Assembly (NCBI GenBank): GCA_027028665.1
Contig: JALVIU010000098.1
Coordinates: 1 to 5,409 of the forward strand
Length of the DNA: 5,409 nucleotides
Source: Candidatus Atribacteria bacterium
GTDB lineage: Bacteria; Atribacterota; JALVIU01
Reading direction: 5' to 3'
The position numbers and the translations under genes are program-made. The notes beneath the pieces are model-generated. The model saw only the letters and a list, made by a program, of their open reading frames with translations. It was not told the DNA's origin and made no database searches. This document shows positions 196-5,405 of this stretch, in pieces (positions within the stretch are counted from its first letter, which is position 1; the number at the start of each line of letters is the position of its first letter).

Positions 196-993
196 ATGGA
201 TAGAAAGATAAAAATTGGAGTATTTGGGGGTTCGGGTTTTTATTCTCTACTTGAAAATGCGGAAAAGATAAAAGTGGATACTCCATATGGTCCCACAAGT
301 GATTTGATTACTATAGGAGAAGTGGATGGTAGAGGGGTTGCCTTTCTTCCAAGACATGGAGAAAGACATACGCTTCCTCCCCATAAGATCCCTTATAGAG
401 CGAATCTTTGGGCCATGAAACAATTGGGTGTAGAGCGTATTATAGGACCTTGTGCAGCAGGTAGCCTTCAACCACATGTAAAAATAGGTGATTTTGTTAT
501 ATCTGATCAAATTGTAAATAGGACATATAGGAGAGAAGATACATTTTATGATGGGCCAGTGGTTACCCATGTAAGTTTTGCAGATCCGTATTGTCCAGAA
601 CTTAGAAAGATATCTATTGAGAGCGCAAAGAAGCTTGGTCTACCCCATCACGAGAAAGGTACAGTAGTTGTTATAGAGGGTCCCCGGTTTTCTACACGGG
701 CAGAAAGTAAGTTTTATTCTGCTCAGGGCTGGGAAGTAATAAATATGACACAATATCCCGAAGCGATACTTGCAAGAGAGCTTGAAATGTGTTATGTAAA
801 TATTGCTCTCATTACAGATTATGATGTAGGAATGGAGGGGAAGGTTCCTCCCGTTTCTCATGAACATGTTATAAAGGTATTTCAGGAAAACAATGAAAAA
901 CTTAAAGAACTTATATTTGAAATAATAAAAAATATTCCTGATGAAAGACATTGTAATTGCGGTTCTGCATTAGATGGCGCAAGATTTGAATAA
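196..993 (+). CDS. mtnP: S-methyl-5'-thioadenosine phosphorylase (MTAP)
   Basis: This cytoplasmic enzyme of the purine nucleoside phosphorylase/MTAP family cleaves 5'-methylthioadenosine with phosphate to adenine and 5-methylthioribose-1-phosphate, salvaging the by-product of polyamine synthesis. The 265-residue length is normal. Visible motifs are the N-terminal GGSG loop (11-14), RHG (53-55, phosphate-binding Arg-His), CAAGSL (86-91), EGPRFSTRAES (161-171), VINMT (181-185, ribose and phosphate contacts) and TDYD (207-210). The two Asp residues of TDYD (D208, D210) occupy the position where 6-oxopurine PNPs have Asn, which favours adenine nucleosides. The C-terminal HCNC (C253, C255) resembles the Cys-X-Cys of archaeal thermostable MTAP/PNP enzymes. 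The ATG start follows AGGGAGG (184-190) by 5 nt. The gene appears monocistronic at its 3' end because a strong hairpin follows. A guanosine/inosine PNP is the main alternative and is less likely given TDYD. Confidence 0.95.
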   Translation: MDRKIKIGVFGGSGFYSLLENAEKIKVDTPYGPTSDLITIGEVDGRGVAFLPRHGERHTLPPHKIPYRANLWAMKQLGVERIIGPCAAGSLQPHVKIGDFVISDQIVNRTYRREDTFYDGPVVTHVSFADPYCPELRKISIESAKKLGLPHHEKGTVVVIEGPRFSTRAESKFYSAQGWEVINMTQYPEAILARELEMCYVNIALITDYDVGMEGKVPPVSHEHVIKVFQENNEKLKELIFEIIKNIPDERHCNCGSALDGARFE

Positions 994-1041: not shown

Positions 1042-1620
1042 TTATTTAGGCAAAAGACTTAGACCTTCTTTACTTAGTTCTTCTTCTCTTTTTCTTAGTG
1101 CTTCAATCATAAATTCTATATGTTCTTCTATAGGTATCCCAAGTTCCTTTGCTCCTTTGTATATTTCTTCTCTATTTACCTTTCTTGCAAATGCCTTATC
1201 TTTTAGTTTTTTCTTTATTGACTTTACCTTAAGCCCATCAAAATTTCTATTTGGTCTTACAAGCACAGCTGCCACAATAAAACCTGCAAGCTCATCTACA
1301 GCAAATAATACCTTATCCATAAGATGGACCCTCGGAAATTCAGGGCGAGATGCATGGCCCTGGACTGCATATATAATATCCTCCGGCCAACCTCTTTCTC
1401 TTAATATCTTTTCTCCTTCTGTAGGGTGATTATCAGGATATTTTTCATAATCAAAATCGTGGATAAGCCCTACTATACCCCACTTTTCTATATTTTCTCC
1501 ATACTTTTCCGCATATGCCCTCATGCCTGCCTCAACTGCCAGTGCATGTCTTATAAGACTATCAGACTTTGTAAATTCTGTTAAGAGTTTCCATGCATCT
1601 TCTCTTGTTGGATTCTCCAT
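1042..1620 (-). CDS. HD/HDIG-domain metal-dependent hydrolase of unknown substrate
   Basis: This is a 192-residue soluble protein of the HD superfamily, whose members are metal-dependent phosphohydrolases acting on nucleotides or other phosphoesters. The HD metal-ligand series is visible: H25 in RHALAVE, H54-D55 in LIHDFDYE, and D109 in FAVDELAGF. Extra histidines at H65 (NHPTEGEKIL) and H89 (QGHASR) could allow a two-metal site. The DELAGFIVAAVLVRP stretch followed by VKSIKKKLKDKAFA is, as I recall it, typical of a widespread uncharacterised HDIG subfamily, and here the domain fills nearly the whole protein. It lacks the GYP signature of cyclic-di-GMP phosphodiesterases. The ATG start (1618-1620 on the complement) has AAGGAGG 5 nt upstream (1626-1632). 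It is divergent from the histidine kinase gene and convergent with mtnP, so it seems to be transcribed alone. The substrate cannot be told from the sequence. Confidence 0.85.
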   Translation of the reverse strand: MENPTREDAWKLLTEFTKSDSLIRHALAVEAGMRAYAEKYGENIEKWGIVGLIHDFDYEKYPDNHPTEGEKILRERGWPEDIIYAVQGHASRPEFPRVHLMDKVLFAVDELAGFIVAAVLVRPNRNFDGLKVKSIKKKLKDKAFARKVNREEIYKGAKELGIPIEEHIEFMIEALRKREEELSKEGLSLLPK

Positions 1621-1674: not shown

Positions 1675-1751
1675 TTTACATATTTGATTTATTCTTTAAA
1701 ATTTATGTTATAATAAAACAAATTTACATTTATTATTACAAGGATTTACAT
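1675..1751 (+). repeat. Three TTTACAT direct repeats in the divergent intergenic region
   Basis: TTTACAT occurs at 1675-1681, 1723-1729 and 1745-1751. The second and third extend to ATTTACAT and are exactly 22 bp apart, about two helical turns. The third overlaps the start codon of the histidine kinase gene, and both lie just downstream of its predicted -10. They could be operator half-sites or a chance product of AT-rich sequence; there is no direct evidence of binding. Confidence 0.25.
1684..1714 (+). promoter_or_regulatory. Candidate promoter of the kinase-PEBP-beta-helix operon
   Basis: A perfect TATAAT lies at 1709-1714, preceded by TG at 1706-1707 with one spacer base (TGT-TATAAT, an extended -10). 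A possible -35, TTGATT at 1684-1689, matches TTGACA at four of six positions, but its 19-bp spacer is long. Extended -10 promoters can function with a poor -35. Transcription would start near 1721, giving a leader of about 29 nt before the kinase ATG. Confidence 0.5.
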
Positions 1752-3423
1752 GGATAGAAAAATATTTAGAAGAGAGTCAACAAAAAAGTATATTGACGCT
1801 TTTTCTAAGGTAGCAAAGATTCTTCTATGGGAAGAGGATCCAGATGTATTTATGGAGCCAGTACTTAAGATACTTGGTGAGATAACCCATGCAGATAGGA
1901 CTTATTGGTTTAGGAGATTTATGAGGGATGGTAAATGGTATCTAAGCCAAAAATATGAATGGGTAAGGGAAGGGGCTTCTTCTCAGATAGACAATCAGCA
2001 ACTTCAGAATATACCGGAGGATGGCGTATTTACATCTTATCATAATGCACTTCTTAAGGGAGGGATACTACATGCCCTGGTCAAAGATCTTCCTGAATTT
2101 GATAGAAAACTCCTTAAAGCTCAGGAAATAAAGGCAATTTTGAATATTCCTTTATATATACAAGATACATTTTGTGGGGTAATAGGTTTTGATAATATCC
2201 ATGAGGAGAAATTATGGATGGAGGAAGAAGTAAGTGCTTTGAAGCTTATGGCAGATATGATAGCTCTTTCACTTTTGAAATATGAAAAAGAACAGGATAG
2301 GAAAAAGCTTACAAGAAGACTTGAAACGCTTATGGAGGTAATTCCTGATTTCATAATATTTAAGGATAACAAAGGAAATTGGGTTTATGCAAATAATAGA
2401 GTACTAGAAATCTTTGGCCTTTCGAAGGTAGATTATAGGGGCAAAAGTGATAAAGAACTTATAAGGCAGGTACCAGAGGATTTAAAGGATATTTTATTAA
2501 AAATACTCAAAACAGATGGAGAAAGAAATGCAATATATATCTTAAAGAAAAATGATAAAACTTATTACATAAGGCCAGATAGAATCATTATACAAAATCC
2601 TGAGAGAGATATGGGAGATACCCTTATCATAGGAAATGATATTACAAATGAAATGGAAATAAAGAAAAAAGAGATAGCCCTTCTGGAGAGGGAAGCACAC
2701 CTAAATAAGATGGAAGCATTAGGTGTGATTACAGGGAGTATAGCTCATGATATCAATAATAAACTTTCTGTTGTAGTAGGAAATCTTTCGCTTTTAAATC
2801 TTAAAATAGATGATCCATCTATTTTAAGATATGCTAAAGATGCTTTGGAAGCAATAGAAGAGATAAGTGCTATTGTAAAAAGAATGCTCCTTTTTGTGGG
2901 AGATGAGTTTCATAGAGAGGATAATATAAAGTTGGAAGAAGAAATAAAAGATATAGTAAATGAATTTAGAGAAGAAACAAATTATGAAGGGGAAATCAAA
3001 GTTTCTTTTCCTGTAGAAGAATTACCTGTAAAGATGACAAAATTTGAATTTAGAGAGCTGATCTTAAATATCCTTGTAAATGCTAAAGAGGCTATGGAAA
3101 ATTCTTCTGAAAAACTCATTAAGATTATTTTGCATAAAGATCATGTTGTAGATCCTTCTGAAATTCTATACCCTCTACAAATGAAATCAGGAGAAGATTA
3201 TTGTATAATAGATATAAGAGATACAGGAGAGGGAATCTCGAATGATGTTTTACCACATATATTTGAGCCCTTTTATACTACTAAATTTATAGGTAGAGGT
3301 CTTGGACTATCTACGGTAATTGGAATAATGGGAGCCCATGGGGGCGGAATAGATGTGGTTTCAAGTGAATCTGGAACTACTTTTTCACTTTATTTTCCTT
3401 TAAGGAGAGGTGATAGGCAATGA
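1750..3423 (+). CDS. Soluble GAF-PAS sensor histidine kinase
   Basis: This 557-residue two-component kinase has no signal peptide or transmembrane segment, so it should sense a cytoplasmic signal. The order is a GAF-like domain (about 34-178, with EIKAILNIPLYIQ and CGVIGFDNI), a PAS domain (about 190-303, with VIPDFIIFKDNKGNWVYANN), a short coiled linker (300-325), a HisKA helix with phosphoacceptor H333 in GSIAHDINNKLS, and a HATPase domain. ATP-site motifs are the N-box around N440/N444 (NILVNAKEA), G1 DTGEG (491-495), F-box FEPFYTT (505-511), G2 GRGLGL (515-520) and SGTTF (541-545). D334 and N337 after the histidine fit the phosphatase motif, so it may also dephosphorylate its partner. There is no receiver domain, and no response regulator lies in the window. 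The ATG has a modest AAGGA 5 nt upstream, and an in-frame stop at 1714-1716 excludes a much longer form. It overlaps the next gene by 4 bp. The ligand is unknown. Confidence 0.93.
   Translation: MDRKIFRRESTKKYIDAFSKVAKILLWEEDPDVFMEPVLKILGEITHADRTYWFRRFMRDGKWYLSQKYEWVREGASSQIDNQQLQNIPEDGVFTSYHNALLKGGILHALVKDLPEFDRKLLKAQEIKAILNIPLYIQDTFCGVIGFDNIHEEKLWMEEEVSALKLMADMIALSLLKYEKEQDRKKLTRRLETLMEVIPDFIIFKDNKGNWVYANNRVLEIFGLSKVDYRGKSDKELIRQVPEDLKDILLKILKTDGERNAIYILKKNDKTYYIRPDRIIIQNPERDMGDTLIIGNDITNEMEIKKKEIALLEREAHLNKMEALGVITGSIAHDINNKLSVVVGNLSLLNLKIDDPSILRYAKDALEAIEEISAIVKRMLLFVGDEFHREDNIKLEEEIKDIVNEFREETNYEGEIKVSFPVEELPVKMTKFEFRELILNILVNAKEAMENSSEKLIKIILHKDHVVDPSEILYPLQMKSGEDYCIIDIRDTGEGISNDVLPHIFEPFYTTKFIGRGLGLSTVIGIMGAHGGGIDVVSSESGTTFSLYFPLRRGDRQ
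3402..3423 (+). promoter_or_regulatory. Shine-Dalgarno and ATGA stop-start overlap coupling kinase and PEBP genes
   Basis: AAGGAGAGG at 3402-3410 lies inside the kinase's last codons, 9 nt before the ATG at 3420. That ATG shares the bases ATGA with the kinase stop codon (TGA 3421-3423). This arrangement decides the PEBP start and suggests translational coupling, so the two proteins are probably made together. Confidence 0.75.
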
Positions 3424-3875
3424 AGGCATGGAGCCCCAGGTTTTTAAAAGGAGGGAGGATTCCAATCATATACACCTGTATGGGAAAGGATATATCACCA
3501 CCTATCCTTTGGGAAGATGTGCCGGAGGACACTTCTTCTTTTGCCCTTATAGCTTATGATCCAGATGCACCAGGGGGAACCTGGATACATTGGGTAATAT
3601 ACAATATCCCATCTACGGTAAGAAACCTTCCAGAAGGATTACCTGCCAAAGCTAAACTTCCTGATGGAACAATGCAAGGGAGAAATGACTTTGGTAATAT
3701 CGGTTATGGAGGTCCATGTCCTCCCTCTGGAAAACCTCATAGGTATTTTTTTACACTCTATGCTATAGGCAGTTCGATTAAATTAGGAGAGGGGATTACA
3801 AAGGATAGGCTTTTAAGAGAGGTAAAGGATTCAATTTTGTCAGAGACTAAGTTTTACGGTATATTCTCAAGATAA
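3420..3875 (+). CDS. PEBP-family protein, YbhB/YbcL (Raf-kinase-inhibitor-like) type
   Basis: This is a 151-residue single-domain protein of the phosphatidylethanolamine-binding protein fold, bacterial YbhB/YbcL branch. Eukaryotic members bind lipid head groups or phosphorylated ligands and inhibit kinases such as Raf; bacterial roles are poorly known. The N-terminus (RIPIIYTCMGKDISPPILW) is typical of the branch. The anion pocket is visible as DPDAP (47-51), HW (57-58), GGPCPPSG (97-104) and HRY (107-109). By motif, D47, H57, H107 and Y109 correspond to pocket residues D70, H86, H118 and Y120 of human PEBP1. No signal peptide is present, so it should be cytoplasmic like the kinase before it. 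C20 and C100 are the only cysteines. It overlaps the kinase gene by 4 bp and ends 21 bp before the exported beta-helix gene. A link to kinase control is tempting from the family name but is only inference. Confidence 0.92.
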   Translation: MKAWSPRFLKGGRIPIIYTCMGKDISPPILWEDVPEDTSSFALIAYDPDAPGGTWIHWVIYNIPSTVRNLPEGLPAKAKLPDGTMQGRNDFGNIGYGGPCPPSGKPHRYFFTLYAIGSSIKLGEGITKDRLLREVKDSILSETKFYGIFSR

Positions 3876-3896
3876 ATAAAAAAAGGGGGTTATATT

Positions 3897-5405
3897 ATGA
3901 AGAAGTTTTTTGTTTTATTAATAGGCGTAATTTTGATTTTGGGATTTTCAACTATCTCTTTTGCTGCAAGAGGAGTGGTGGTTTTACCAAAAACCTCTGG
4001 AGAATATGATATTGTGGTATCTCAAGCAGGGGATGGTGATTATAAAAATATCCAGGATGCACTTGATGAGGCAAAAGAAGGAGATACCATTTTTGTAAAG
4101 GCAGGGAAGTATGAGGAATCACTATATGTTGAGGCAAACGGAATAAAACTCATAGGAGAGGGAAAGGATAAGGTAGAAGTAATTGCGAAAAATGGTGAGT
4201 CAGTTATAAGTATAGCAGATGTGAAAGGGGTGGAGGTAAGTGGATTCACATTTACATATGTAGCACCTGAAAATGATGAAGGAAATGCCTGTGTATGGAT
4301 TTCAAATGGTGATGACATATCATTCCATGATAATAAGGCACAAGGGGCTACATATTCTGGTATAGAGCTTTCCAATGTACAAAATTCCAAGATCTATAAT
4401 AATATAGCAGAGAATAATAAGCAAAGTGGTATTTTTGTAAATAATGGGGCATACAATTTGCTTATATATAAAAATATCTCTCGTAATAACGGCTATCATG
4501 GTTTAGAGGTAACAGATGATGGTTCAGTTCCTTTTGTCTTCTCTAATAATTTTAAAGAAAATAAAGAAGCAGGTATATATATTCATGATTATGCAGGACC
4601 TATTATAAAAAATAATAATATTACTGGAAACGGACACTCAGGGATTGTGATATCCAAACAGGGTAGAGCCCTTGTCGTATCAAATGAAATAACAGGCAAT
4701 AAAGAAGATGGTATATATATGTATAAAAATGGAAGCGCAAGGGTGATTTCAAATAAACTTGTCAATAATGGAATATCTGGTATGACTATTAATAATAGTT
4801 TTGCAACTATTATTAATAATTTTATACTTAATAATAAACAATTCGGTATAGATGCCTATGGTAAGCCAGACGAAGATGCAGAGGACCTCTATGAGGTTAC
4901 CATTACAAAAAATACCATTCAGGGCAATAGCTATTCTGGTATTGGTTGTGGGGGTAATTTACTCAAACTTTCAGCCTCTTACAACTTAATAAAGAGCAAC
5001 AAGGAGGATGGTATACTAGTATACGAAGAATCAGAAGGTAATGTGTTTAACAATCTTATCATAGGTGCTGGACTCAATGGTATCGAAGTAAGAAAAGATG
5101 CCCGCGCCTTTGTTATGAATAATACACTGGTGAAAAATGAAACAGGTATATATTCACATGATAATGGATATGGAACATATATTTATAATATTGTAGCTTT
5201 TAATAAACTTGGCATAAGGTATAAGGAAGAGGATAGAGAGCTTAAAATCGTGCACATGATGAATGTCTATTGGAAGAATAAAAAGACAAATACAGGTATA
5301 GAACTTGGAGATGATAATTTTAATAAAGATCCTGGATTTGTTGATGAGGAAAATGGAAACTATAAGGTAAAAAGTGATTCTGAATTTGCAGGTTGGGGGT
5401 ATTAA
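3897..5405 (+). CDS. Exported right-handed parallel beta-helix protein (NosD/PbH1-type repeats)
   Basis: This 502-residue protein begins with a signal peptide: MKK, a hydrophobic core at about 4-17, and a likely signal peptidase I cleavage after SFA (A23). There is no lipobox cysteine. Mature residues 38-75 (YDIVVSQAGDGDYKNIQDAL, then EGDTIFVKAGKYEESL) form the usual N-terminal cap seen in pectate-lyase-like and DUF1565-type proteins. About twelve coils follow (154-438), each starting with a [S/D/A/N]-G-[I/L/M] turn and rich in Asn, as in carbohydrate-binding or -cleaving beta-helices. The end, DPGFVDEENGNYKVKSDSEF, matches a common terminal cap. No pectate lyase catalytic signature is recognisable, so enzyme activity is uncertain; a surface, polysaccharide-binding or polysaccharide-modifying role is equally possible. 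The ATG follows AGGGGGT (3884-3890) by 6 nt. It is the third gene of the apparent operon, and its stop TAA overlaps a possible next ATG. Confidence 0.9.
   Translation: MKKFFVLLIGVILILGFSTISFAARGVVVLPKTSGEYDIVVSQAGDGDYKNIQDALDEAKEGDTIFVKAGKYEESLYVEANGIKLIGEGKDKVEVIAKNGESVISIADVKGVEVSGFTFTYVAPENDEGNACVWISNGDDISFHDNKAQGATYSGIELSNVQNSKIYNNIAENNKQSGIFVNNGAYNLLIYKNISRNNGYHGLEVTDDGSVPFVFSNNFKENKEAGIYIHDYAGPIIKNNNITGNGHSGIVISKQGRALVVSNEITGNKEDGIYMYKNGSARVISNKLVNNGISGMTINNSFATIINNFILNNKQFGIDAYGKPDEDAEDLYEVTITKNTIQGNSYSGIGCGGNLLKLSASYNLIKSNKEDGILVYEESEGNVFNNLIIGAGLNGIEVRKDARAFVMNNTLVKNETGIYSHDNGYGTYIYNIVAFNKLGIRYKEEDRELKIVHMMNVYWKNKKTNTGIELGDDNFNKDPGFVDEENGNYKVKSDSEFAGWGY
4356..5210 (+). repeat. Coding repeats: tandem beta-helix coils of 22-24 residues
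   Basis: Residues 154-438 of the beta-helix protein break into coils starting at 154, 177, 201, 225, 248, 271, 294, 316, 347, 371, 394 and 416. Each opens with a small residue-Gly-hydrophobic turn (SGI, HGL, AGI, DGI, SGM, FGI, NGI, TGI) and carries an Asn-rich turn near its end (NNK, GNG, GNK, VNN). The period is 22-24 residues except the coil at 316-346, which is 31 residues because of an acidic insertion (GKPDEDAEDLYE). The repeats are clear in protein but degenerate in DNA. Confidence 0.85.

Follow-up and report, generated by a model that had tools for sequence, protein, structure and literature searches.

Tight packing of bacterial genes invites the assumption that their products work together, and the question raised by the present locus is whether a compact trio of genes, encoding a soluble histidine kinase, a PEBP protein and an exported beta-helix protein, represents a signalling module or a local arrangement of genes whose products act apart. 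A sequence-only reading of this DNA had suggested that the PEBP protein could bind a ligand or modulate the kinase and that the beta-helix protein could act on a polymer outside the cell, while allowing that the gene order might be a lineage-specific accident. The window, by which we mean the whole stretch of DNA analysed, comprises 5409 bases and corresponds to one complete contig; the genome to which it belongs was recovered in 413 contigs.

Gene layout and transcription signals

The kinase, PEBP and beta-helix genes lie head to tail on the + strand (Table 1), and ORF coordinates and Pfam matches agree with the positions and families that the sequence-only reading had assigned to them. Both features of spacing that it described were also found: the kinase and PEBP genes overlap by ATGA (3420-3423), and a gap of 21 bp (3876-3896) separates the PEBP gene from the beta-helix gene. 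A 4-bp overlap of start and stop codons is usually a sign of translational coupling, and such coupling is enriched among functionally related genes. Upstream of the kinase gene, the candidate promoter element TGTTATAAT is the sole perfect TGnTATAAT in the window when both strands are scanned. A terminator scan of the window revealed no terminator-like site in either gene junction; the nearest one (3355-3380) falls within the kinase gene, and the count of such sites in the window is not above that in shuffled sequence. RNA elements were likewise absent from the window at Rfam gathering thresholds. The spacing of the genes, the extended -10 element upstream and the terminator-free junctions make it likely that all three are carried on one transcript. 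Co-transcription had earlier been called very probable; the close spacing of the genes and the single good promoter-like site make it plausible. The contig ends (5409) 4 bp past the stop codon of the beta-helix gene, so that the transcription unit may be longer, with its 3' end outside the sequence, and a response regulator might be encoded there.

Table 1. Features of the window, with the evidence or context for each.
Feature	Position	Strand	Evidence or context
MTA phosphorylase gene	196-993	+	beyond HD gene
HD/HDIG-domain protein gene	1042-1620	-	divergent from kinase operon
Extended -10 promoter-like element TGTTATAAT	1706..1714	+	35 bp upstream of kinase ATG; weak -35
Ribosome-binding-site-like AAGGA	1740..1744	+	upstream of kinase; sequence
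Soluble sensor histidine kinase, 557 aa	1750-3423	+	ORF, Pfam, motifs
Domains of the kinase	GAF aa 30-175; PAS 190-284; HisKA 328-382; HATPase_c 434-552		
YbhB/YbcL-type PEBP protein, 151 aa	3420-3875	+	Pfam, TIGR00481, motifs
Exported right-handed parallel beta-helix protein, 502 aa	3897-5405	+	Pfam, signal-peptide-like residues 1-24

Composition and the upstream flank bear on the provenance of the contig. The tetranucleotide usage of the contig correlates with that of its own bin at r 0.947, against 0.938 +/- 0.018 for other contigs and about 0.76 or less for stretches from twelve other genomes, and relatives of the divergent HD gene occur in 40 of the 49 other genomes of the phylum. The possibility that the contig is foreign to its bin was considered and ruled out by this composition together with the neighbouring HD gene, and on the same grounds it is unlikely that the operon is a binning error. 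A perfect 15-bp inverted repeat (GTTTAAGGCAGGTTT ... AAACCTGCCTTAAAC) with a 9-base loop occupies positions 995-1033, where the MTA phosphorylase and HD genes converge; it is probably a bidirectional terminator, passed over by the terminator scan because of its loop length.

Families and features of the three products

Both sequence hallmarks of a histidine kinase, HATPase_c boxes and a phospho-acceptor His, are intact in the first product. Its HATPase_c domain (PF02518, 1.5e-16) contains the N, G1, F and G2 boxes at aa 440, 491, 505 and 515, and H333 lies within AHDINN at the expected place of a HisKA domain that itself scores below threshold (PF00512, 22.2 bits versus a cut-off of 26.9). Kyte-Doolittle analysis gave no transmembrane segment in this protein, which also has no receiver domain, and no response regulator is encoded next to it within the contig. 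At E 1e-30 the kinase has no match in any of the 49 further genomes of the phylum. Its five best relatives, among 386 genomes searched, share 28-32% identity with it. The nearest, a hybrid of 1222 aa, combines multiple PAS and GAF domains with a receiver, so that the window kinase is a short version lacking the receiver. The host genome is small (1.8 Mb), with 22 receiver domains and 17 HATPase_c matches, and thus offers many possible partners for an orphan kinase. Many of these domains lie within hybrid kinases.

In the second product, a PBP domain (PF01161) extends over the full length (136.6 bits, 9e-40), and a score of 146.9 bits against TIGR00481 (cut-off 57.75) places the protein in the YbhB/YbcL family. 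The pocket Asp and two His are kept (DPDAP at 47, HWV at 57, PHRY at 106), the E. coli YbhB structure 1fjj is matched at 1.7e-30, and with neither a transmembrane segment nor a signal peptide found (Kyte-Doolittle), the protein is predicted to be cytoplasmic. The family name "Raf kinase inhibitor-like" derives from the mammalian homologue, and Raf itself, a serine/threonine kinase, has no relationship to histidine kinases. On bacterial PEBPs the label is an inherited annotation that carries no evidence of kinase control, and no function should be inferred from the term "kinase inhibitor" as applied to YbhB proteins. According to a review published in 2022, genes of the FT/PEBP/YbhB family seldom show conserved positional associations; the review also argues that family members are possibly small-molecule enzymes, and describes links of YbhB to sugar and nucleoside metabolism as well as fusions in which a pectate-lyase-like carbohydrate-binding module occurs (PMC8793217).

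The third product matches Beta_helix/NosD families in Pfam, is pectinesterase-like over an N-terminal stretch, and has one hydrophobic stretch, within residues 1-31 (Kyte-Doolittle). Its score against the NosD model TIGR04247 is 58.9 bits versus a cut-off of 300, nos genes are absent from the window, and the protein contains no DPHD, GxxDFI or LGRxW, the sequences searched for as AlgG and pectinesterase catalytic motifs. The mean pLDDT of a single-sequence structure prediction was 44.8, a quality insufficient for fold searching. Apart from the host genome, no genome of the phylum yielded a match to this protein at E 1e-15.

Conservation of the gene order

PEBP was detected in 27 of 60 other genomes searched, for which flanks of at most 1.5 kb were taken, some ended by a contig edge; a scan covering 84,980 species genomes contributed its best 80 loci. 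After two partial or second copies were left out, the set compared with the proteins of the window comprised 106 PEBP loci, of which 25 belong to the same phylum and 81 do not, with the host family represented by one genome in all gene-order comparisons. Close neighbours, defined as genes on the same strand within 200 bp according to a simple ORF caller, numbered 57 upstream and 48 downstream. A histidine kinase was the close upstream neighbour in one case of 57, which is about what chance would supply by a rough estimate from a kinase gene share of ~1% (17 HATPase_c in a 1.8-Mb genome), and a beta-helix protein was the close downstream neighbour in 0 of 48. Within flanks of at most 1.5 kb, some of them shortened at a contig edge, the kinase-PEBP order occurs at none of the 25 loci of the same phylum; outside the phylum it occurs at one of 81. 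At this locus (L041, from a Calditrichota MAG) the gene directly upstream of PEBP encodes a PAS hybrid kinase with a receiver, in which no GAF was detected and whose 5' end is lost at the contig edge.

The complete kinase-PEBP-beta-helix order was found in no other examined genome, whereas a conserved module would recur in several lineages. The sequence-only reading had proposed a search for the three-gene order in other genomes and a test of whether the PEBP gene always sits beside a GAF-PAS kinase, and had taken an order seen in a single strain as counting against the functional link. Set against the 106 other loci, the order was indeed confined to this one genome, and the single upstream kinase found elsewhere is of different architecture. 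Moreover, in the genomes of the five nearest kinase relatives, PEBP lies on another contig in two and was not detected in three.

Within the phylum, the neighbours of PEBP differ by family, with PfkB and DUF4139 genes in one and RimK-type or AP_endonuc_2 genes in others. In the first of these families, across several genera, a gene for a PfkB-type sugar kinase stands directly before PEBP and one for DUF4139/DUF4140 directly after (L015, L016, L021-L023, L025 and L027; tallies of 7 PfkB and 6 DUF4139, assigned to loci from ORF lengths, the L021 PfkB alone having been checked individually). Such a neighbourhood fits the notion of a role for YbhB proteins in the metabolism of small molecules.

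Interpretation of the cluster

We consider it likely that the cluster is a short, lineage-specific transcription unit of three functionally separate genes, each from a common family. The kinase would then be an orphan of the cytoplasm, its GAF and/or PAS domain sensing an internal signal; H333 is the predicted site of autophosphorylation, from which the phosphoryl group would pass to a response regulator whose gene lies at another place in the genome or past the contig end. The PEBP protein, a member of the YbhB type, may be a small-molecule binder or possibly an enzyme, acting independently in the cytoplasm, and the beta-helix protein, once exported, would most likely bind a surface or extracellular polymer. 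Against such separateness stands the ATGA overlap, since the translational coupling that it usually marks is enriched among functionally related genes. As the case stands, it illustrates that an overlapping gene pair in one genome is weak evidence for a pathway. The same overlap, the 21-bp gap, the predicted cytoplasmic location of both kinase and PEBP, and the kinase gene that directly precedes PEBP in the Calditrichota genome would all speak for a functional module, in which the kinase would either receive a ligand from PEBP or be inhibited by it, and would itself govern how the gene for the exported beta-helix protein is expressed. We nonetheless judge this very unlikely, since the order is missing from all 25 PEBP loci of the same phylum and from nearly all others, the one exception is a PAS receiver hybrid, PEBP shows no linkage to the closest relatives of the kinase, and a literature search turned up no paper that connects bacterial PEBPs with histidine kinases. 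The lack of conserved order and of linkage among these relatives likewise leaves unsupported the roles first proposed for PEBP, as ligand binder or kinase modulator, and for the beta-helix protein, as outside effector. Also very unlikely, in our estimation, is a PEBP-fold protein that in this lineage is translationally coupled to the cytoplasmic histidine kinase and modulates it. Were that true, the pair would be a bacterial counterpart of Raf and its regulator RKIP, and bacterial PEBPs, whose function is unsettled, would gain a testable signalling role.

Shared timing offers another account, whereby the products answer the same condition, such as polymer or sugar availability, without contact, the PEBP protein being a small-molecule enzyme of the sort proposed for the YbhB family. 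The sugar and nucleoside links of YbhB, the pectate-lyase-like carbohydrate-binding-module fusions (PMC8793217) and the adjacency of PEBP to PfkB sugar-kinase genes in the same phylum are in keeping with it. We regard it as unlikely, in that the order of PEBP with the kinase or beta-helix gene is not conserved and a catalytic motif was not identified in the beta-helix protein.

Relation to known systems

Considered as the separate genes that we favour, the three products each have recognizable relatives. The kinase resembles the AtoS/CckA/VirA-like soluble PAS/GAF kinases in its HisKA H-box of the form AHDxNN, its HATPase_c boxes N, G1, F and G2, and its PAS domain ahead of HisKA. It differs from CckA, which possesses a receiver, and from the group as a whole in having no adjacent response regulator in the contig. 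The beta-helix protein shares repeated coils, a signal peptide and the pectinesterase-similar N-terminal stretch with right-handed parallel beta-helix proteins (PF13229; NosD, pectinesterase-like), and departs from NosD, AlgG and pectinesterase by falling below the NosD cut-off and by its lack of both the AlgG DPHD and the pectinesterase active-site motifs. The PEBP protein conforms to the YbhB/YbcL family (TIGR00481, COG1881) in score, pocket motifs and its match to 1fjj, with nothing notable that differs; because it has no signal peptide, it is YbhB-like and unlike the secreted, YbcL-like form.
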